Shown here one piece after another: positions 311-58,594 of a stretch of DNA of 64,000 bases. The translations under genes and the position numbers were made by a program. The DNA is from Defluviitaleaceae bacterium (GTDB lineage: Bacteria > Bacillota_I > Bacilli_A > MOL361 > Turicibacteraceae). The DNA lies in contig WRKJ01000108.1 of NCBI GenBank assembly GCA_009778135.1, positions 1-64,000 on the forward strand. The letters run 5' to 3'. The notes beneath the pieces are model-generated. The model was given only the letters and a program-made list of their open reading frames with translations. It made no database searches and was not told the DNA's origin. How positions within the stretch are numbered: the first letter of the stretch is position 1; every line of letters starts with the position of its first letter.

Positions 311-1936
311 TCAATGTCGCCCATCTTTTGCGTGTATAAGTAGTTTTTTTGGATTCCACTTCATAAAAGTTATAAATGGAATAATCAATGCCACTAAGGT
401 CATCCCGATCGTTACAACATAGAATAAGATGAAATCAGCATATCCGAAAGAGAGATTAACCAAGCTCAAAAATCCATCTAAAGTCAAGCGTTCGGGTTCG
501 ATATGAACGAGGGTGTTCGGCAAACCGAGGATAATATTATCAATGAGTGCAAAATTCCCACCTAAAAGAATATCTGGTGGATATCTTAAATCAAGCGCTT
601 CTTGAGAGCTGATAAACTCTGGAATGAGGATGCGTTGCGTGATTTCGTCTGTTATAATGGGAAGAAAAATGAGGACCAATGCAAAAGAAAAGTGAACGAG
701 GAGAAGTATTTGAATGAGATTTTCCATTAAGATGTTTTTTCTTTTTTCTCCTAAAGCCAGATAGATACCAACTTGATGTTTTTTTTCTTGAAGGATAAGG
801 AGTAACAATAAGCCGACCACAACAAATGAAGCTAAAATGAGGAAAGCGAAAAAGAAAAATGTCATCGTTTCTATGCTTTCAAAAGCTAGCTGGACATCTC
901 TTAATTGTCTAGAACCATCAACAGTTGTCAAAAACGCAGGCAAATGACGAGCAGCAGCTTGATGAAACCTTCTTAAATCTCTCGCATCATAAAGTAAAAA
1001 GAAATGTTCCGACGGTACATGCTCTTGCCAATATCGAATTTGTGAGCGCATACCAGCATCATGATCATACCACGTTTGCCAAAACCAATGATAAATAGAT
1101 AAACTTAATTCATAAGGTATAAACAGCGTATTTGCTGTCATTAAATGTGCTTCTTCAACACTGAAACTCGTTCTTTGGAAATTCATCATCTCAAAGATGC
1201 CAATGATTTCCAATTCTACCTCCAATGAATCGATGACATTTTTTTCCGTAAACCAATTCATGGTGCCATCATGCACACCACGGGTTAAAAAGTCTTTAAT
1301 GCTAAGTGTCGAGCCAATATCAAGCCCATTAAGCCTTGCAAACTGTTCTGAGATGATCACAACAGGAGCGCCTGATGCGATTTCTTCTTCAGTAAAGCTT
1401 CGTCCATGAGCCAGTTCGAAAATGCCTAAATTCAGTTCGAAAAAATTTTCTAAACTAACGCCACGTGTTCGGATCCTTTCGATGCCCAATTGTTCTCCGG
1501 TCAATGGTTGTTGTCCTTCGGGCAAGTGAAAATATGGAAAATGATAATAGATAGAAAATAGGTCTCGTGCATCATCAAAATCAGATGAAAAATAGCGTTG
1601 GATATTGGGTGCAAATAGATCTTGCTCTAAAAACAGTTCCATATGCTCGACGTAAGGTAATGCGGCAATATCTAGCAGGAGATCTGTTGTGATATGTGGC
1701 CAGTCAGGAAAGTAACCATATTGTTGCTCATGAATGGTCATTTCTGCTTCATCTTGACGTATGTGAACCACTCTCGGTACTTGTTGCCACATGTTTACTT
1801 CTGTTAATCGGACGCCTTGTCGAAGACTTAAAACAGTCAGCACAAACAGCATCAAAGCAAAAAAGACCAATAGGAGTAATAAAGACTGAAACATATTTCT
1901 AATAACAGATAAAGTTGCTCTTTTTAAAACAGTCAC
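311..1936 (-). CDS. FtsX/MacB-type ABC permease, locus A
   Basis: 541-aa integral membrane protein with the four-helix FtsX layout: one transmembrane segment near residues 10-38, a large extracytoplasmic domain, and three C-terminal segments from about residue 360. The GTG start is chosen from the GGAAGGTGA ribosome binding site 6 nt upstream. It has the cytoplasmic signature IYLALGEKRKNIL after the second helix. It is a clear paralogue of the permease at 16933-18483 (shared GRxFTExE, LLYDxxDL, RLPAF/HLPAF and IYLALGE blocks). Permeases of this class normally need an ATPase partner, and none is encoded nearby. It follows a small secreted protein gene, so a role in its export, sensing or immunity is plausible but inferred. 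Confidence 0.8.
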   Translation of the reverse strand: MTVLKRATLSVIRNMFQSLLLLLVFFALMLFVLTVLSLRQGVRLTEVNMWQQVPRVVHIRQDEAEMTIHEQQYGYFPDWPHITTDLLLDIAALPYVEHMELFLEQDLFAPNIQRYFSSDFDDARDLFSIYYHFPYFHLPEGQQPLTGEQLGIERIRTRGVSLENFFELNLGIFELAHGRSFTEEEIASGAPVVIISEQFARLNGLDIGSTLSIKDFLTRGVHDGTMNWFTEKNVIDSLEVELEIIGIFEMMNFQRTSFSVEEAHLMTANTLFIPYELSLSIYHWFWQTWYDHDAGMRSQIRYWQEHVPSEHFFLLYDARDLRRFHQAAARHLPAFLTTVDGSRQLRDVQLAFESIETMTFFFFAFLILASFVVVGLLLLLILQEKKHQVGIYLALGEKRKNILMENLIQILLLVHFSFALVLIFLPIITDEITQRILIPEFISSQEALDLRYPPDILLGGNFALIDNIILGLPNTLVHIEPERLTLDGFLSLVNLSFGYADFILFYVVTIGMTLVALIIPFITFMKWNPKKLLIHAKDGRH

Positions 1937-2667: not shown

Positions 2668-3180
2668 TCAAATTTTTATCTGTATTCTTTTAACTAAGCT
2701 ACTATATAAAGAATCGCCAATGCGTATTCCCGAATTTTTCAATTGCTCGAAACATTGTAATGCAACCTCTACTGTGATTAAATTTTCTTCATAAGCATTG
2801 ATAATTACACCTAACGTTCCAGTGATTTGATTACCCATTTGTTTAGCAACCAAACGCCCTTTTCGTTCGTCCATCAACAAAAGATTTGCTTTTATTTCTT
2901 CTGCAAGAACAATTGCTTCACTTTCGCCTTTATCAAGTCCTGTTGCTCGTCGTAAAATAGAAACAGATTTGGTATCTCCAACTTCCATGACATCAATAAA
3001 AGTTTTACTTTTGATCAATTCAGCTTCTTGTTTGAATTTTTGATTAGTAGTCAATTCTTGGTATACTGCAACTGGTATTTTAACTCTTTTGAATAGTTTT
3101 TCCAATAAATCTAATTGTTCAATTTTCATCAATGAAATAATAGGGGTTGTGTCAGAAACAATAATCATCTTAGAATGCAC
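2668..3180 (-). CDS. DUF3368-type PIN-domain toxin
   Basis: 170-aa PIN-fold nuclease of the DUF3368 type. An early acidic motif (IIVSDTTPII, Asp10) and later acidic residues (GLDKGESEAI, LLLMDERKGR) match the metal-binding Asp/Glu set of PIN RNases. Its start overlaps the UPF0175 gene upstream by 11 bp, the usual antitoxin-first arrangement. Expected role: RNA cleavage when released from its antitoxin. The family assignment rests on motifs and pairing; the RNA target is unknown. Confidence 0.8.
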   Translation of the reverse strand: MHSKMIIVSDTTPIISLMKIEQLDLLEKLFKRVKIPVAVYQELTTNQKFKQEAELIKSKTFIDVMEVGDTKSVSILRRATGLDKGESEAIVLAEEIKANLLLMDERKGRLVAKQMGNQITGTLGVIINAYEENLITVEVALQCFEQLKNSGIRIGDSLYSSLVKRIQIKI

Positions 3181-3448
3181 CCCTTAGATTCCTGATTGTT
3201 TGAATATCTTCCTCTACCTGTTCTATCCCGAAATCAAAATATGACAGACCTAAGTCTCTATATAATGCGATTAAATCTAGTTTGTTCATACCTAAAAGTT
3301 CAGCTGCTTTTCCATGAGAAATAGTTTGATTATTGATATATAAATGCAATAATAAAGCATTTCTTTTTAACTTCATATCTGCATTTTCCATCTCAATGAA
3401 AGGCAACATCTCTTTTGGCACATCTATTTCAATTTTTATCATTTCCAT
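3170..3448 (-). CDS. UPF0175-family antitoxin
   Basis: 92-aa protein with a central helix-turn-helix-like segment (ISHGKAAELLGMNKLDLIALYRDLG, about 43-67) typical of UPF0175, which pairs with DUF3368 PIN toxins. The ATG is preceded by AAAAGGAGATG. It overlaps the toxin start by 11 bp, so the two are translationally coupled. It probably neutralises the toxin and may repress its own transcription; that is family-based inference. Confidence 0.8.
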   Translation of the reverse strand: MEMIKIEIDVPKEMLPFIEMENADMKLKRNALLLHLYINNQTISHGKAAELLGMNKLDLIALYRDLGLSYFDFGIEQVEEDIQTIRNLRGAF

Positions 3449-16932: not shown

Positions 16933-18483
16933 CTAGCCAATGGATCCTTTTAGTAAAACATCTTTTGGATTCATCTTTAAAAGGTAGACAGTTGGTAACA
17001 GCGTTGAAAGTGAAACGACGATAGACGTCACGAGATAAAAGAGTAGAATTGTCGACGTATTCAAAGACGTGTCATACAATGCGAGCATTTCTTCATGCGT
17101 CATCTCAAATCTAAAACCAAGGGTTTCTGGCGTTTCTCCACTGACTCTGCTAAATTCATCCAATTCAGCTTGTCTCATTAAATCTGTTCGGATCATAACT
17201 GTTGAAAGTTCAGATGCCATTAAATGACCGACAAATAAAGCGCAAGTGATGGCAACAGTAACAAGCAAGAGCAGTTCGATCAAGATTTGTCCTGTTAGTC
17301 GTTTCTTTCCTTCTCCAAGGGCTAAATAAATCCCTAGTTCCAATTGTCGATCTTTTATAAACACTAAAATCAACATACTTAAAACGGTCCATGATGCAAA
17401 AATAGTACCAATGACAATCCCATTGGCTAAATCCCCCATGATTACCATGGAACTTGCGATATCTGCATAGGCATTAGAAAGGTCGGACACTGTCCAAAAT
17501 GCTGGTAAACGCTGACTAGCTGCATGGGCAAAAGCAACAAGATCAGTTGGATCATATAAGAGAAATAAAAGTTGCTCATAACGAATGATTTCTTCGATAT
17601 TGTCTGTCTCTGTTAAATGCACAATGAGTTCAGGATTCATTTCTGAAAAAGTCTCTAAATAAAGCGGTAAAACAGATTCCACAACACGATTGGGAACATA
17701 GATGCGGTTGATCATCTCAATATGATGGTTAATATCAATTCCTTGTCGCCATGCTTCATTCACTAATTGATGCTCAAAAACACCGATGATTTCCAGTTCA
17801 AAAGCCTGTTCAGCCAGCAATACTTCAAAAGGTGCCGCCCCTGAAAATTCATCATAAATCCGATAATCAAGTACGATTTGACTTCCTAGACTAAGACGAT
17901 TGGCTACTAAAAAATCTTGACTGACTAAAACAACATGTGCACCCTCATCTACTTCGTTTTCTGTAAAAGCACGACCTGCGACTAATTCAATTAATCCCGC
18001 TTCAATATCGACTACTTCATGATGATGAATCCCTTTTAATGTAAACCGCTCAAAATCGACATCATGGTGAAACGATAAACGGCCCCAATCTTCTGGTTGG
18101 GCATGACCCAACTCATTTAAAAAATCAGCATCAAAGGCTCGAATGAACACATCACTAAAAAAATGATGACCCCAAGCGGTGTAGTCAAACATGCGTACAT
18201 AAGGCAATGTGCCAATTTCACGAATCAACGCTGGCGTTACCACTTCAAACTCAACCCATTCTCCTCGCAGTTCTCGTTCTTCTTCAAGTAATTCCTCGTT
18301 AAGATGAATGGTGGTCACTGCAGGTAATTGCTGACGCAAAGCCATGTCCGTGTTAATGATCGCTTGCCTGATGGTAAACGCAAATGCCATTAAACTCCCT
18401 AATAAAAAAATGACACCCAGTAACAACATTGTTTTAACCCATTGACGCTTTAAACTCAACAACGCTCGTTTTGAAAAATTCAT
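16933..18483 (-). CDS. FtsX/MacB-type ABC permease, locus B
   Basis: 516 aa from the ATG at 18483 (GAGGG 6 nt upstream; the frame opens 12 nt earlier). One N-terminal transmembrane helix, a long extracytoplasmic domain (about 40-345) and three C-terminal helices. Paralogue of the protein at 311-1936: both have GRxFTExE, LLYDxxDL, LPAF, IYLALGE and a terminal NPK motif. No ABC ATPase gene is adjacent. Last gene of a three-gene operon, placed after an internal terminator-like hairpin. Function with the upstream secreted and anchored proteins is inferred from context only. Confidence 0.8.
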   Translation of the reverse strand: MNFSKRALLSLKRQWVKTMLLLGVIFLLGSLMAFAFTIRQAIINTDMALRQQLPAVTTIHLNEELLEEERELRGEWVEFEVVTPALIREIGTLPYVRMFDYTAWGHHFFSDVFIRAFDADFLNELGHAQPEDWGRLSFHHDVDFERFTLKGIHHHEVVDIEAGLIELVAGRAFTENEVDEGAHVVLVSQDFLVANRLSLGSQIVLDYRIYDEFSGAAPFEVLLAEQAFELEIIGVFEHQLVNEAWRQGIDINHHIEMINRIYVPNRVVESVLPLYLETFSEMNPELIVHLTETDNIEEIIRYEQLLFLLYDPTDLVAFAHAASQRLPAFWTVSDLSNAYADIASSMVIMGDLANGIVIGTIFASWTVLSMLILVFIKDRQLELGIYLALGEGKKRLTGQILIELLLLVTVAITCALFVGHLMASELSTVMIRTDLMRQAELDEFSRVSGETPETLGFRFEMTHEEMLALYDTSLNTSTILLFYLVTSIVVSLSTLLPTVYLLKMNPKDVLLKGSIG

Positions 18484-18502
18484 ATCATCCCTCATTTCTT
18501 AA

Positions 18503-18533
18503 AAAAGTGATTCGCTCAAAGCAAATCACTTTT
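18503..18533 (-). terminator. Internal terminator/attenuator in locus B
   Basis: Minus-strand AAAAGTGATTTGC ... GCGAATCACTTTT, 13 bp with one G-U pair, followed by TT. It begins on the stop codon of the 362-aa gene and lies just before the permease gene. It would reduce permease expression relative to the two secreted components. Confidence 0.75.
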
Positions 18534-19620
18534 ATTCTATAACTTGAATGGTGAAGCGATCTGATGTCTCAAGGGGAAAGTAAGTCTCCTGAGAAAAAGG
18601 CGCTGTTGGATTGGGAACTAAAAAAGCAACGAACTCATAAAAACCAGGTTCACTTGGTGCTTCAATAAAAAATCGACCATGTTGACCATACAGCGAATCC
18701 TCACCAATATTAACCCACATGTATGGCTCCCCACTCATGGGAATTTGTTGCCAATCCAGCATAGAAATGATTAAAATCTCTTCCACATCTGGTCCATCCA
18801 AAGGATTCCCAGCTTCATCAAAAGTAGTAAACGCGCCATGCATGTTAGAAACAAAAGCCAATTCAATCTGCTCATTGGGAGACACTTGAAGTAACTCAGG
18901 TGCATTCAGTACGACGCCGTCTGTCAATGGTTCAAAATCTTGATTGACAAAGAAAGGACCAAATAACCGATACACATGATCGACAGTTTCATTTTTTGGA
19001 ATCGGCAGTACAAATCGCCCTTCATTTCCATAATTGATTTCAAAATGAAGCACTTGTCCTACATCCCATCTAGGGGTGAAAAACAAATCACCATGATCTT
19101 GAAACGCATGACGCTCCGGTGCTAAAAAGAGACCTACCGTTAAATGACTGGCTGTGTCACTCACTTCAAAACTTGAATCTAAGTAAAAGGGGATATCTAG
19201 ATAGGAACGACTCGGAACAGTTAATACAAATGTCTTCCTGTATTCAGTTGACGTTCCCACACGAAAATAAGCGGCTTCATAATTATAAAAAACTTTCATC
19301 AAAAAGACAAGGTCACCTGAAAAAGTTTCATTCGCCAGATTCACATTAAGTCTGTCTTGCGGTGTTTCTAATAAAAAAGGATGAACAGGTTCTCCTCTTT
19401 CTTCTCCAAACCACACACCAAAACTAGCAAACACATCAAAAGCATCCCCTGGTACTGGCGTAAATACCAGTCCGTACGCTTGAGCTTCAACAGGGAGGTG
19501 CTTAACATTGATGTTAATGTCAGCTAGGTCATCATTACTCGTTAAAAAAATGGAAAGCAAATAGCCAGCTAAAATAATTAATGTCATTCCTGAGCCAACA
19601 AGAACTATTCTTTTTTTCAT
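18532..19620 (-). CDS. Membrane-anchored extracellular protein, locus B
   Basis: 362 aa. An N-terminal transmembrane anchor (about 5-25) without a lipobox, then an extracellular region of repeated short hydrophobic/aromatic strands that looks like several beta-sandwich domains. There are no cysteines in the mature region that I can see. I do not recognise the family. It sits 7 nt after the 165-aa secreted protein gene and before the FtsX permease gene. A receptor, chaperone or presenter for the secreted protein fits this position, as inference. Locus A has no counterpart. Confidence 0.7.
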   Translation of the reverse strand: MKKRIVLVGSGMTLIILAGYLLSIFLTSNDDLADININVKHLPVEAQAYGLVFTPVPGDAFDVFASFGVWFGEERGEPVHPFLLETPQDRLNVNLANETFSGDLVFLMKVFYNYEAAYFRVGTSTEYRKTFVLTVPSRSYLDIPFYLDSSFEVSDTASHLTVGLFLAPERHAFQDHGDLFFTPRWDVGQVLHFEINYGNEGRFVLPIPKNETVDHVYRLFGPFFVNQDFEPLTDGVVLNAPELLQVSPNEQIELAFVSNMHGAFTTFDEAGNPLDGPDVEEILIISMLDWQQIPMSGEPYMWVNIGEDSLYGQHGRFFIEAPSEPGFYEFVAFLVPNPTAPFSQETYFPLETSDRFTIQVIE

Positions 19621-19627
19621 AATTGAC

Positions 19628-20125
19628 CTACCAAGTTCTAGAATCTACCACCTGAAAGCCCCATCTGCCTGATGCGCTATCGCGACGCTCTCCATACGCT
19701 CTTACAGTACCATTTCGAGTGCTTCCAACCAGTTCTGGTGTAGAAGCAAAACAAAGACCTCTCGTTAAGTATCGCCCAGAAGCAGCTATATTAGTGCTCC
19801 ACTCTTCACCAGTACGCACCGTCGTTGTTCCATTGGAATTCCGCACTCTTACTCGTGCGCGAACGCCATTGATGTTTACATTTCTTGTACAAGCTGTAGC
19901 TGTTCCTCTCGGAGAAGCTAATAGTGGTGGTCTTGATGCCGTTAAAACAACGTCATGATTCGCGTACGCAACTGTTCCACTTAACACTGTTAAAGCGGCT
20001 GCTCCAGCAATAAGAGACTTTTTCGCAAAGCTTTGCGTCACTTGCCAAGCAGATTTTTTCACCTCTTCCTGAGCTTGATGAATCATCACATGTCGTGATT
20101 TGAACCGTTGTGATACTTTTATCAT
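19628..20125 (-). CDS. Small secreted two-cysteine protein, locus B
   Basis: 165 aa. A long, basic n-region (1-36), a hydrophobic core at 37-52 and a likely signal peptidase site after AYA (55) release a mature protein of about 110 aa. The mature part has two cysteines (Cys79, Cys125), many Arg/Ser/Thr residues, and ends with Trp. The ATG follows AAGGAAGGATAAA. It is first in the locus B operon. It is analogous to the 112-aa protein at 1998-2336 (PP motif soon after the signal, two cysteines, then Ser/Thr/Asn-rich strands), although plain sequence similarity is weak. Family not recognised. Confidence 0.75.
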   Translation of the reverse strand: MIKVSQRFKSRHVMIHQAQEEVKKSAWQVTQSFAKKSLIAGAAALTVLSGTVAYANHDVVLTASRPPLLASPRGTATACTRNVNINGVRARVRVRNSNGTTTVRTGEEWSTNIAASGRYLTRGLCFASTPELVGSTRNGTVRAYGERRDSASGRWGFQVVDSRTW

Positions 20126-20222: not shown

Positions 20223-20251
20223 ATTTTAACACTTTTTTACTCAATTGTCAA
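20223..20251 (-). promoter_or_regulatory. Promoter of locus B
   Basis: Minus-strand TTGACA (20246-20251), 17-nt spacer, TAAAAT (20223-20228). Its -35 is 8 nt from the edge of the MITE target repeat at 20260. Confidence 0.82.
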
Positions 20252-20259
20252 TACGCCCA

Positions 20260-20465
20260 AGGGAAAGGGCAATGTCATTAACTTAAGAAACACGAAGCCC
20301 TAAAACTTACCCCATTTCGCAGTGATTTTTTGGCATTAGCGGTTCTGAGCTATTGCTCAGGTTCGGTAATGTCAAAAAATCGCAATGGCAAACGGTAGTG
20401 CGCAAGCTGTTACAGGTCGATTAAGGCTAAAAATAACCTTAAGTTAATGACATTTAGGGAAAGGG
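20260..20465. mobile_element. MITE-like element with 10-bp target duplication
   Basis: A 186-bp non-coding segment (20270-20455) lies between direct repeats AGGGAAAGGG (20260-20269 and 20456-20465). Near its ends are perfect 17-bp terminal inverted repeats AATGTCATTAACTTAAG (20271-20287) and CTTAAGTTAATGACATT (20438-20454). An inner hairpin pairs GATTTTTTGGCATTA with TAATGTCAAAAAATC around a CTGAGC/GCTCAG tip. It has no ORF. Short length, inverted ends and flanking duplication are the signature of a miniature inverted-repeat transposable element mobilised in trans. Confidence 0.85.
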
Positions 20466-20499
20466 TGCTTTTATTCTGTATTTTTGCAGCAAAAAAATA

Positions 20500-20596: not shown

Positions 20597-23482
20597 TCAC
20601 TGTGTCCCACCCATGATACGACGGTGTTGTTGCGTGGTACCAAAGCTTGATTGTAGTGATGCATCACTTGATGTGATCACTTCATTTAAGCTGGTTGTCG
20701 TTTGGTTTCGAACTGCTGAAAAAGTGTCGACTTGTGTGAACACACCGCCATTGGCGTCGCCTTCAAGGTTAGCACCTAAGCGCCATAGTGAAATGTCTGA
20801 ATCTAAGATTTCCACACGTGACATTCTACCATTGCGAATGACTGGTGATGTTCCGTTGTTACGTAAGTCAAAAGACGCTGGATTGTTTAAAACGAAGCGA
20901 TGGTTTCGATTACCTGTTCCTGTATCCATGTTAATCAAACCATTACCTGTTCCGTTAGTCGTTCCAGTCACGTATAATGAAGCACCTGGTTCGATGGTAA
21001 AGCTGGCATTGCTTGGATTCCTACCTAATGCACTGAAGTAAGTCAAAACAGGGCCTGCCGTACGTCTTGTTAAGTTAATCACTGAGCCATATTGTGCTGT
21101 AAATGTTGCACCTTGACTAGAAAGTGCGAAAGCAGGTCCTTCAAAGTTGATGTCAAGCACGCTGTTCTCACCAATGGTCATCGTTTCCCAACGGTCAAAA
21201 ATAGCTGGATATGTCGCACCTGTTCCTGCCGTCTTTGTTAAGGTTAGCGTCACATTGTCACCAACTGTAAATTCACGGCTCGCACCTGTTGTTCCCGCTG
21301 CTGCCAGTTCTGGAAACCAAATCAATGAGTAATCACGGAAGTTAATGTTACCACGATAGTTCGTACCATCTTCAATAATGATACTTCCGGCATAGAAATT
21401 TTCTGCACGTGTATTAAGGTCGAGTTCACCATAAAGGGTGATTTCTCCTTGATAAGCTCTTACAACTCTCGCAATTCTTGGATCTGTACTTAAATTTCCG
21501 ATTCTAAAACGCCAGCGGTTGACACGAGAAGTTAACGTTCCTGATCCTTGAATAAATGAAAATGAACCAGCGACATCAAGACCAGCTGCACGCGTTACAT
21601 CGACAGCACCTAAGTGTACATTGTGGAGATGGAAGACTGGTGTGTATCCTGCAGCTGGTGTATTAACAGGCAGGCTTCGACCAGAACGTTGGTAAAAGGT
21701 AAATCCACATCCATCAATTTCTAACGATGTTCTGCGATCAGTTAATGAAACACTTGATGGGAAAGTTAAGTCGTTTAATAAGACAATCCTTGCTACATTC
21801 GAGTTGTTATAAGCTGCTTGAAATTGAGCCCAAGTGGAGACAGTGGCAATCTCGCTCCCTAATTCGACTTCCATGCCATAGCAAATCGGATCTGGTTTTG
21901 GAATCATTTGATCCCAATGTGCCGTTACAGTGACATTTTGAGTAGGAAGTCCGCTCACGTTTTCTATTCTAGCTGTTGTCTGAGCGTGAATACCTGCAAT
22001 TTCTGGCTCACTACTCCAATGGCTAAAAGTGTAACCGAAACGCGTTCCAGCATCAATGGTCACAGATTCTGAACCATCTGCAACGAAGAAGAGTCGATCC
22101 CCTGTTGTTTCCATTTCTGGATTCGTGCCACTCATAAATGTCTGAGAACCACCATCAACCATGGTTAATGTCCTCAAAATCGTATAAGGTGTTAAGGTCG
22201 TCGTATTAATGTCCCAATTGTTAATTAAATGAACAGGCATATCAATTAAGCTTGTTGTTGCTGTATGATGTCCATTTAGCCAATTTTCCCAACGAATGTG
22301 AGGAAACCTGATACGTCCTCCTTCAACACCCATTTGAATCATCAGTGGACTCCCTTCATAAGCACTTGAACTATTCTCATAAAAATGAATACGATATGAT
22401 GTGTCAATACCATCCACATACCCAATATTTAAATTGCTGTAGTCTGACTGTGCACTGAATATACCACCACCATTACCATTGGTCGAACTCACTGTATTCC
22501 CTCGAATCGTACCTGCTCGCATGTTGAATGTGGCATTTGCACCAACCCAAATACCGCCTCCATTCGTAAACGCACTGTTTCCTTCGATAATACCATCATT
22601 CATGGTAAAAGTGGTGCCTGCGGAATTGTGTAACCAAACACCGCCTCCAAATGCTTGACTAGAGCCTAAAACATTATTGGAGATGCTGCCACCGTTCATG
22701 GTAAACGTCGCACCATTTTCAACTGCAACAGCACCACCGTTAGTTGTCGCAGTTGAATTTGGAATAGAAACGCGATTATTTTGGATGATGCCATCATGCA
22801 TCACAAAATGGGCATTTGACCCTGTCAACCTGACGGCACCACCATTCCCAACCATACCACCCTGATGCGCATCTGCAAAATTATCTTCTAAAATGCCGCC
22901 GTACATGGTAAAGGTTCCATTTGTGATGTTGACTGCACCGCCATGGTTTCCAGTTAAAAGATGTCGTAAAATAACGCCATCATGAATCCTCAAGTTCGCA
23001 TTGACCTGATTAAGATCGATGCCGCCACTCCGACCCCCATCGCCTGTAACGATCTCTGTTTCGTTATATAAAGTGATGTTATTAGACTGCTCTGTTCCAT
23101 CTTCAATTCCAAGATTAAGCGTACCATTTACGATAAAATGACGCCCATTGGCCAGATTTTGCGCACCATTTCTGATGAGATAAGAACGGCTATCAGGTTC
23201 TATCTGACCATTCAAAATCGTGATATGTTGATTCGCAGCAATTGTTATCGCTGCTTCATTTCCTAAAAGGATTTCAGACTCTGTTAAATAAATCGTCGTC
23301 GGTGTTGCGCCTGCTTGCTGAATCGCTTGTCTAAGTTCTCCAAACGTTGAAGCAGTAGCTGTTGGCTGATCTTCTACGTCATTAGCCACTACAACGACAG
23401 ATGAAACCATTATTGCAGCGATGATAAAGGTGAATAGGATACTTGGCATTTTTCTTGCAAAATCAAAATGTTTAACACTCAT
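20597..23482 (-). CDS. Large secreted adhesin-like protein
   Basis: 961 aa from the ATG at 23482 (GGGAGG 8 nt upstream). Signal peptide about 10-35. Residues ~45-350 form a right-handed beta-helix with repeated FTMNGG.I..N and GGG.W units like polymorphic repeats. Around 430-520 is an InlB/Flg_new-like repeat (GYTFSHWSS to VTVTAHW). Residues ~540-955 resemble the pectate-lyase-like adhesive domain of Lactobacillales surface proteins (VSTWAQFQAAYNN, LEIDGCGFTFYQR). It ends at RRIMGGTQ, with no LPXTG motif, WxL domain or other anchor, so it is either released or C-terminally truncated. Monocistronic. Confidence 0.85.
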   Translation of the reverse strand: MSVKHFDFARKMPSILFTFIIAAIMVSSVVVVANDVEDQPTATASTFGELRQAIQQAGATPTTIYLTESEILLGNEAAITIAANQHITILNGQIEPDSRSYLIRNGAQNLANGRHFIVNGTLNLGIEDGTEQSNNITLYNETEIVTGDGGRSGGIDLNQVNANLRIHDGVILRHLLTGNHGGAVNITNGTFTMYGGILEDNFADAHQGGMVGNGGAVRLTGSNAHFVMHDGIIQNNRVSIPNSTATTNGGAVAVENGATFTMNGGSISNNVLGSSQAFGGGVWLHNSAGTTFTMNDGIIEGNSAFTNGGGIWVGANATFNMRAGTIRGNTVSSTNGNGGGIFSAQSDYSNLNIGYVDGIDTSYRIHFYENSSSAYEGSPLMIQMGVEGGRIRFPHIRWENWLNGHHTATTSLIDMPVHLINNWDINTTTLTPYTILRTLTMVDGGSQTFMSGTNPEMETTGDRLFFVADGSESVTIDAGTRFGYTFSHWSSEPEIAGIHAQTTARIENVSGLPTQNVTVTAHWDQMIPKPDPICYGMEVELGSEIATVSTWAQFQAAYNNSNVARIVLLNDLTFPSSVSLTDRRTSLEIDGCGFTFYQRSGRSLPVNTPAAGYTPVFHLHNVHLGAVDVTRAAGLDVAGSFSFIQGSGTLTSRVNRWRFRIGNLSTDPRIARVVRAYQGEITLYGELDLNTRAENFYAGSIIIEDGTNYRGNINFRDYSLIWFPELAAAGTTGASREFTVGDNVTLTLTKTAGTGATYPAIFDRWETMTIGENSVLDINFEGPAFALSSQGATFTAQYGSVINLTRRTAGPVLTYFSALGRNPSNASFTIEPGASLYVTGTTNGTGNGLINMDTGTGNRNHRFVLNNPASFDLRNNGTSPVIRNGRMSRVEILDSDISLWRLGANLEGDANGGVFTQVDTFSAVRNQTTTSLNEVITSSDASLQSSFGTTQQHRRIMGGTQ

Positions 23483-23779
23483 GACGCTTTCCTCCCTTAT
23501 TTTCATAAAAGTCGTAAATTAAATTTACATTAAAAGAAATACTTCAACATTTACCATGCAAATAGTCTATTAAAATCGCCTTCCTTTCCGTTTTGCTTTG
23601 AAAACTTGTGTGTATTGAGATCTCTGATAAAATCTTACAACATTTTTCAATCAAAATCAATCATTTTCGTTCATTTTTTAGTTTTTTATTTTGTTTTTAT
23701 CTTATATATCGTAAAAAAAGTTAATATTCGACAAAGAAAGACATTTTTTCGACCAAAAAACGTCAGCTTTTCTTTCAAT
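23483..23779. other. Gene-free upstream region of adhesin gene
   Basis: AT-rich region between the threonine aldolase terminator and the adhesin start. It must contain the adhesin promoter. I see no strong consensus promoter and no credible ORF. Confidence 0.5.
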
Positions 23780-56776: not shown

Positions 56777-58594
56777 TTATTCACCGATAGCAGGCATTGC
56801 ATCTACATCACCAAATGTTTCGATCCAAGCTTGTTCACGTTCTGCAATAATGGCTGAACCACCCATTAGCATATAAGCCGCATACTCTCTATCAAACTCT
56901 GTATCGAAGTTATCTGCAGTTGCTTGTACAATCAACCGATGGAAAATTTGGTCCCTTAAATCGATTAATGGAATACTCATTCCTTCTTCTGATGCAATCG
57001 CACGTGTGTTAACATTTCTGAAGACATACGCATAGTTAACTGCTAAGTTAAAGGCATTCATAATCGCTTCTTCTGAAATGCCTGGATATCCAGCTGCAGC
57101 TGTTGCAAGTGCGCGCTCTTCATCGACTAAATCAAACCAAACACCATTTATCAACGGGTTAATATCGAAGTTTCTTGAACCACTAAATTGTTGATCAACT
57201 GGGAAACCTGCAGGATCTAACATTTGTAGGACACCGTCTGCACGTACTTCATGGTGAACATCTTCAAGACCGAATTGTAATAAGTCAAGTGTTTCTGGAC
57301 GATTCATGAAATCTAAGAATAACAAAGATGCCACTACTTCATCATTGGTTGATGGTAAAAATGCAAAGCGGTCAGTTGGACCTGAAGCAAACAGTCTATT
57401 CGCACCAGCATCATTGTCAAATGGATTAATTGCGATAAAACTAGCATCTTGACCGACATTTTCACGCATCACTGTTGTGAAGCCATCTCCAGGACGGAAC
57501 GCTTGATCCCAAGTTGCGTGGAATGAACCAACTAAACCTAAGCGGATTAAATCATGACCTTCTGAAGGCTCACCTAAAACGAAGTTATTCCATAGTAAAC
57601 CTTCACTAAACCAACGGTTCAGAACACGAGTTCCTTCTCTCATTGCATCTTCAAACTGGAAAAGTCTGTCATCAAATCCATAAACGAACCATTCACGCTC
57701 TGTCACATCATTTGGAATAAATGAATGGAACAACCCTCTTGCATCCCAACCTACATCATTTGTCAACAAATAGGGAACAATATCGTCTGGAGACATATTC
57801 ACGATGTTATAGTGATACTCTTCTTCAATGCCTTCTTCTTCATTTGCTGCTTGTGTCACAACACGTACACTTACATCTTCACCCATTCCAGGCAATTCAT
57901 CTGCACGATCACGGAAAGCTAACAATGTCGCTTCAAATTCTTCAGTTGTCGTTGGAATAGGTAAGTCTAACGCATTTAACCAGTCTTCACGAATAAACGT
58001 TACTGTGTTTTGCACCCCTTCTGATGCACGACGTCCTGTAATGGTAAACAATTCATTTGTATCCGCATCAAGGTTCCAGAAAATATTTGTTTCAGTCACT
58101 TGTGCAAACATATTTGGAAGAATTTCACGATAACGTGTTAAATATGGATATAAGTTAACAATTCCACCCATTCCAGCCATTGTTGTAACCATCGCTGCAT
58201 CAAATGTCCATCCCACATCAGGTGCTTCCTGTGCTGAAAGTAATGTCGCTTGGAATTCATTTTCTCCCCAACGTGGTGTTGGACGCCAATCAATGATAAT
58301 GTTATGTGCTTCTAAAATTTCAGCAGCAATCCGATTTGCCCAATACGTTTCATCTGCTTCTACCTCTTCAACACGGTTCCAAAGACCAACTGAAATGGTA
58401 CGTGGCTCAGTGAAACGTAAATTGTCGTCTAAACCTGCTTCTGCAAAGATATTTCCTGGTTCAACAGCTCCTCCATTTTCTTCTACTTCAGTTGGTTCTG
58501 TAGCAGCTGTATCAGCATCTTCATTTCCACATGCCGCCAATACGAAAACGGATGCCATGAAACATGCCATTAATAATAATGTTTTCTTTTTCAT
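56777..58594 (-). CDS. LplA-type sugar-binding lipoprotein of ABC importer 2
   Basis: 605 aa, the longer LplA/AguE class. Signal peptide with lipobox VLAACG (Cys22), an acidic linker, then the binding domain. AGGAGG precedes the ATG. It lies after the two permease genes (58745-60595) in the same direction. In Geobacillus the same kind of importer takes up aldouronic acids; proximity to GH67 supports that ligand here. No ATPase gene is nearby. Confidence 0.9.
   Translation of the reverse strand: MKKKTLLLMACFMASVFVLAACGNEDADTAATEPTEVEENGGAVEPGNIFAEAGLDDNLRFTEPRTISVGLWNRVEEVEADETYWANRIAAEILEAHNIIIDWRPTPRWGENEFQATLLSAQEAPDVGWTFDAAMVTTMAGMGGIVNLYPYLTRYREILPNMFAQVTETNIFWNLDADTNELFTITGRRASEGVQNTVTFIREDWLNALDLPIPTTTEEFEATLLAFRDRADELPGMGEDVSVRVVTQAANEEEGIEEEYHYNIVNMSPDDIVPYLLTNDVGWDARGLFHSFIPNDVTEREWFVYGFDDRLFQFEDAMREGTRVLNRWFSEGLLWNNFVLGEPSEGHDLIRLGLVGSFHATWDQAFRPGDGFTTVMRENVGQDASFIAINPFDNDAGANRLFASGPTDRFAFLPSTNDEVVASLLFLDFMNRPETLDLLQFGLEDVHHEVRADGVLQMLDPAGFPVDQQFSGSRNFDINPLINGVWFDLVDEERALATAAAGYPGISEEAIMNAFNLAVNYAYVFRNVNTRAIASEEGMSIPLIDLRDQIFHRLIVQATADNFDTEFDREYAAYMLMGGSAIIAEREQAWIETFGDVDAMPAIGE

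Follow-up and report, generated by a model that had tools for sequence, protein, structure and literature searches.

Results

Gene content of locus B and its paralogue

Within the window, by which we mean the whole 64-kb stretch of DNA that was analysed, locus B is a minus-strand operon of three genes that encode, in order, a secreted protein (SEC, 165 aa), a membrane-anchored protein (BETA, 362 aa) and a permease of the FtsX/MacB type with four helices, the genes being separated by gaps of 7 nt and then 36 nt (Table 1). The promoter-like site lies about 100 nt upstream of SEC B, which has a strong ribosome-binding site. For permease B, the most likely start appears to be an internal ATG at position 18483, giving a protein of 516 aa, since a separate ribosome-binding site (GAGGGATGAT) serves this codon and the resulting N-terminus agrees with the MNxxKRA with which the homologues begin. 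The hairpin between BETA and the permease gene could be an attenuator, yielding less permease than SEC. As a general feature of the family, attenuator hairpins were rejected (6/37 vs 11/98 controls), and RNA family searches gave no match in the window. A MITE-like element of about 185 bp (window 20270-20470) with 15-bp inverted ends (TGTCATTAACTTAAG) immediately precedes the SEC B promoter; three more near-full copies of it (91-94%) are present in the genome.

Table 1. Features of loci A and B, in window coordinates
Feature	Position	Strand	Basis
Permease A, 541 aa, paralogue of permease B	311..1936	-	PF12704, 41.7 bits (cut-off 27)
SEC A, secreted, 112 aa	1998..2336	-	ORF; related to the SEC of locus L023 through an HxHxxH stretch
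Permease B, FtsX/MacB type, four TM	16933..18495	-	Pfam matches, tree, alignment
Hairpin then T run, between BETA and permease B	18503..18533	-	-15.8 kcal/mol, z -4.2
BETA, membrane-anchored, beta-rich ectodomain, 362 aa	18532..19620	-	ORF; homologues; AlphaFold2
SEC B, Sec-secreted, 165 aa	19628..20125	-	ORF and AGGAAGG ribosome-binding site
Promoter-like site, TTGACA-17-TAAAAT, extended -10	20223..20251	-	11/12 consensus matches; consensus match alone

Locus A consists of SEC A and permease A. The first-pass annotation had described locus B as holding a second permease of the type seen at locus A, again behind a small secreted two-cysteine protein, and both parts of this description were borne out. 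The two permeases are paralogues with 29% identity over residues 7-517 (E 3e-37) and share the motifs GRxFTExE (GRSFTEEE in A, GRAFTENE in B), LLYDxxDL (LLYDARDL and LLYDPTDL) and IYLALGE, while SEC A and SEC B each combine a signal peptide with two cysteines in the mature part. The anchored, beta-rich protein added at locus B likewise proved to combine a membrane helix at its N-terminus with an ectodomain rich in beta structure (AlphaFold2, mean pLDDT 67). The implied kinship of the two secreted proteins did not hold up, as sequence comparison detected no homology between them. Adjoining locus A is a toxin-antitoxin-like pair made up of a PIN/DUF3368 gene and a small partner gene (window 2668-3448); in the sister genome G006 a homologous pair also neighbours a permease cassette (L164 1625-2406).

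A permease family expanded in termite-gut Turicibacteraceae

Permease B has the architecture of FtsX/MacB-type (type VII) permeases, with an N-terminal TM helix, a large ectodomain, three C-terminal TM helices and a coupling motif (ELGIYLALGE). Its Pfam matches both fall below cut-off (PF02687, 24.7 bits, E 2.7e-5, cut-off 25.5; PF12704, 22.1 bits, E 2e-4, cut-off 27). On inspection of their neighbourhoods, loci A and B hold neither a DUF1430 gene nor the partner ATPase gene that a type VII permease may have co-encoded with it.

Named relatives of the window's genome (G000) are the Turicibacter sp. MAGs Lab288P1bin27 and Nc150P1bin9, which places the host among the Turicibacteraceae of higher termite guts, from which three MAGs have been reported (PMC7024585). 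We compared it with two sister termite-gut MAGs of the family, G006 and G007. Permease profile matches, fragments included, numbered 22 in G000, 22 in G007 and 29 in G006, and each of the three genomes carries about 20 full-length copies; thus the first-pass view of two paralogous loci was right as to paralogy and wrong as to number. The profile search gave 0-2 matches in each of five further family members, which we read as vertebrate-gut Turicibacter. Across the class, 42 of 296 genomes had a match, mostly one or two, and at least five were found in termite genomes only.

In Bacilli this permease family typically belongs to a three-gene operon with an ABC ATPase and a PASTA protein. Downstream of the permease gene, genomes of Oceanobacillus, Enterococcus, Vagococcus, Streptococcus and others usually encode first an ATPase of about 224 aa and then a protein of about 500 aa, in which PASTA domains were present in all three cases scanned. 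The operon is conserved in many Bacilli (L011 5544-9361; L032, L063, L073, L076), and we found no paper on its function in the literature searched. One such triad is present in G000 and one in G007, while for the orthologous ATPase of G006 no neighbouring permease was observed on its contig. In the tree, orphan and triad permeases of termite Turicibacteraceae form one clade (SH-aLRT 99), together with two rows from Coriobacteriia MAGs. This clade takes in most of their ATPase-linked permeases; one, at L153 of G007, groups with the vertebrate-gut permeases. Because the permeases of termite Peptococcaceae form a clade of their own, the family has expanded at least twice. In the latter MAGs (L061, L080, L098), which represent the independent expansion, adjoining secreted proteins have weak PG_binding_1 or C39-like matches.

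Few neighbour genes or insertion sites are common to the sister genomes, so the cassettes turn over. No related viral contig was found that would point to a viral origin, and plasmid spread found little in its favour among five weak plasmid matches, one alone covering most of the query.

The triad-type ATPase is conserved as one copy per termite genome (71-88% identical), and nearly all other termite permeases keep the ATPase-facing motif (ExGIYLALGE) with no ATPase adjoining them. Among the permeases compared, mean identity is 51% in the coupling region vs 25% in the ectodomain. Between the triads of G000 and G007 the ATPase is 88% identical and the PASTA protein 49%; the permease is 48% identical overall, 30% in its ectodomain and 68% in its C-terminal part. 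The best-matching other ATPases of G000, among those inspected, adjoin permeases of their own. Conservation of the motif and coupling region, together with the pairing of the other ATPases elsewhere, makes it plausible that the orphan permeases share the triad ATPase in trans.

Secreted proteins track the permease ectodomains

A small secreted protein is encoded within three co-directional genes upstream of 30 of the 54 permeases, compared with 23 of 209 other genes (p 2.6e-11); several permeases have none. Locus B is a real locus with linkage conserved in other genomes. The SECs form several groups with little or no relationship to one another, including a B type found beside BETA, an A type with HxHxxH and an SH3-like type, one member of which has an SH3 domain above cut-off. 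They carry Sec signal peptides, mostly without a lipobox, and no enzymatic domain was found in those scanned. The mature part of SEC B, of about 110 aa, has two cysteines, is Arg-rich and contains no lysine; its homologues at the sister-MAG loci L143 and L140 (30-38%) and, more weakly, L142 all adjoin BETA. SEC A and SEC B had no Pfam or NCBIfam match at E up to 1. The structural model of SEC B has six strands (pLDDT 57), and at this low confidence a fold search returned nothing at E up to 0.001.

Similarity between SECs tracks the extracellular domain of the permease and not its membrane core. In 19 SEC-similar pairs, permease ectodomains were closer than chance (z -7.2, p 1e-4), whereas coupling regions were not (p 0.55) and the membrane core was not clearly so (p 0.06). 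The ectodomain signal persisted when the core was regressed out (p 1e-4), and likewise when the B group was left out (p 0.001) or each group contributed a single pair (p 1e-4). Such co-variation is what cognate recognition would predict, although co-inheritance of linked genes also contributes and is not fully removable. In one close pair, dN was 0.28 for the mature SEC vs 0.08 for the permease; both genes are under purifying selection, with the SEC changing faster (omega 0.36), and positive selection was rejected for this single pair, omega being below 1 for both. Together with the copy number, conserved linkage and scarcity of shared insertion sites, these data lend strong support to the first-pass proposal of a system that diversifies.

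BETA has seven homologues in the termite genomes, all within permease loci: four with B-type SECs, one with another SEC and two with no SEC. Some are lipoproteins, and one further homologue lies in Turicibacter G003, about 10 kb from a SEC-DUF1430-ATPase locus. Family-model searches with BETA gave no match, and Foldseek retrieved Ig-like proteins at E 3e-8 with a TM-score of about 0.2.

Lysine-poor extracytoplasmic regions

In the termite Turicibacteraceae, extracytoplasmic protein regions contain almost no lysine and much arginine, while cytoplasmic regions have a normal composition (window 20597-23506, 56777-58594 and 19628-20125; loci of G000, G006 and G007). Mature SECs contain 0 lysines in 942 residues (G000), 0 in 861 (G007) and 3 in 1311 (G006), with 8-9% arginine. 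The PASTA protein has 0/732 in its ectodomain and 31/210 in its cytoplasmic part, termite permeases have 0.4-1.1% in ectodomains and 8.7% in coupling regions, and the mature part of an OppA-like lipoprotein is lysine-free in all three termite genomes. This distribution supports the topology assigned to these proteins. In relatives from other habitats, extracytoplasmic lysine is normal or higher: 8-9% for the same families in Oceanobacillus, Enterococcus and relatives, and, in vertebrate-gut Turicibacter, 5.8% in BETA, 8.1% in DUF1430-type SECs and 2.5% in permease ectodomains. Arginine retains its charge at high pH. The P1 gut compartment is highly alkaline (PMC7024585), and the MAGs Lab288P1bin27 and Nc150P1bin9 carry P1 codes. 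Replacement of lysine by arginine outside the cell may be an adaptation to the strong alkalinity of the termite hindgut.

Co-location with lactococcin-972-type genes

Some related loci combine the permease with DUF1430 genes. One has the order SEC-BETA-DUF1430-DUF1430-permease (L018), both 730-aa proteins matching TIGR01654 below and PF07242 above cut-off, and another the order DUF1430-ATPase-permease (L152). G000 has eight TIGR01654 matches, several of them downstream of small secreted proteins, and at one such SEC-DUF1430 locus in G006 the SEC is lactococcin-972-like (PF09683, at cut-off). SEC A and SEC B do not belong to PF09683 by sequence; in G000 the search with this family gave a weak match elsewhere only, on C107. 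A profile comparison between the permease and DUF1430 families aligned the coupling regions weakly (21% probability). A sequence link between permease-linked and DUF1430-linked SECs was rejected, the best E value of 0.014 being near the shuffled background. A different possible bacteriocin locus in G000 (L204 214-3705, contig C30) encodes a small secreted protein, then two proteins with five TM helices and an ABC ATPase.

Discussion

Locus B is one of about 20 diversified cassettes, and we propose, at roughly an even chance of being right, that these encode secreted bacteriocins and cognate FtsX-type immunity permeases that use one shared ATPase. The small, Sec-secreted, beta-rich and Arg-rich SEC would be antibacterial, bacteriocin-like and probably directed at the cell wall, while the downstream permease would protect the producing cell. 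Its ectodomain may recognize its own SEC, or a wall precursor to which SEC is bound, and an ATP-driven motion of the permease could then displace SEC; BETA, anchored at the same surface, might serve as an accessory receptor. The termite permeases arose through duplication of the one belonging to the conserved permease-ATPase-PASTA transporter, whose ATPase the orphan copies would borrow in trans. The link to the cell wall comes from the PASTA protein as triad partner and from the SH3 domain in one SEC. In support of this proposal are the copy number and SEC linkage, the cognate pairing, the descent within a single clade and the co-location of DUF1430 genes; against it weigh the failure of SEC A and SEC B to match a family, the makeup of loci A and B, which have neither DUF1430 nor ATPase, the permeases with no SEC and an omega of 0.36. 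A bolder version, in which one conserved ATPase drives about 20 interchangeable FtsX-type permeases, many of them immunity receptors each for a different lysine-free secreted bacteriocin suiting the alkaline termite gut, is distinctly more tentative.

The first-pass annotation had left the choice between toxin-immunity and signal-receptor pairs. We favour the former because of the lactococcin-972-type DUF1430 genes co-located in related loci; the latter stays an alternative, and an unlikely one in the form of a sensing or detoxification module, in which SEC would act outside the cell as a modulator, with the permease sensing or removing foreign wall-active peptides. MacB-type permeases are known to detoxify or sense peptides (PMC5985334), and in Lactococcus YsaDCB protects against Lcn972 and bacitracin, with the secreted YsaD modulating signalling (PMC7438565), so that SEC and permease would correspond to YsaD and to YsaB, a Bce-like permease. 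However, no two-component system accompanies the permease loci inspected, the permeases have four TM helices rather than ten, and the variety of SECs far exceeds what a modulator would need.

Two further readings seem less probable still. The permease could steer a secreted wall-binding protein for growth or adhesion, in the manner of FtsEX-like wall remodelling or surface assembly, its many copies providing surface variation. The PASTA protein of the ancestral operon, the SH3 domain of one SEC and the weak PG_binding_1 matches beside the termite Peptococcaceae relatives would fit, but the genome has a separate FtsE-FtsX-like pair elsewhere, the SECs scanned carry no enzymatic domain and, unlike housekeeping wall genes, the cassettes share few insertion sites between sister genomes. 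Marginally less probable than this is a role in release or export, with the permease extracting or freeing its own SEC, once exported by Sec, from the membrane's outer face, much as Lol and MacAB do. Adjacency and co-variation of SEC and permease are compatible with it, and the substrates of MacB-type transporters are already outside the membrane (PMC5985334); yet Sec signal peptides, mostly without a lipobox, make extraction unnecessary, and some permeases have no SEC.

If the bacteriocin-immunity proposal is correct, the cassettes represent a new architecture whose immunity component derives, by duplication, from the permease of a conserved wall-associated transporter, and they hint at a function for the widespread permease-ATPase-PASTA operon, undescribed in the literature searched. 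The cassettes also offer matched and mismatched pairs for studying ligand recognition by type VII ABC permeases and the service of many permeases by one ATPase.

Among known systems, the lactococcin 972-type clusters (lcn972-orf2-orf3, scbABC, mediterrocin) likewise encode a small protein secreted through Sec, followed by a large integral membrane protein. Their DUF1430 and ATPase genes are putative immunity genes (PMC11796350; PMC12345188), and Lcn972 binds lipid II (PMC4055356). The triad ATPase has its best match, below cut-off, in TIGR03608 (L_ocin_972_ABC), and DUF1430 genes occur in some related loci. The permease described here, however, has 520 aa and four TM helices compared with roughly 700 aa for the DUF1430 protein, and loci A and B differ from these clusters in the PF09683 result and in the pairing of DUF1430 with an ATPase in one operon. 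The permease-ATPase-PASTA operon of Oceanobacillus, Enterococcus, Vagococcus and Streptococcus shares the permease family, coupling motif and topology; there the permease usually has its ATPase and no SEC, whereas the termite permeases have multiplied apart from ATPase and PASTA protein. YsaDCB and BceAB resemble the cassettes in their MacB-architecture permease and peptide-related role, and YsaD is a small secreted partner (PMC7438565), but the BceAB module joins a ten-TM permease to an adjacent two-component system, an arrangement that these operons do not have. Closest in topology are FtsEX and MacB of type VII, which have four TM helices, a large ectodomain and a coupling helix between TM2 and TM3 (PMC5985334), and from which the present system differs in pairing an orphan permease with a secreted protein that appears to be cognate.
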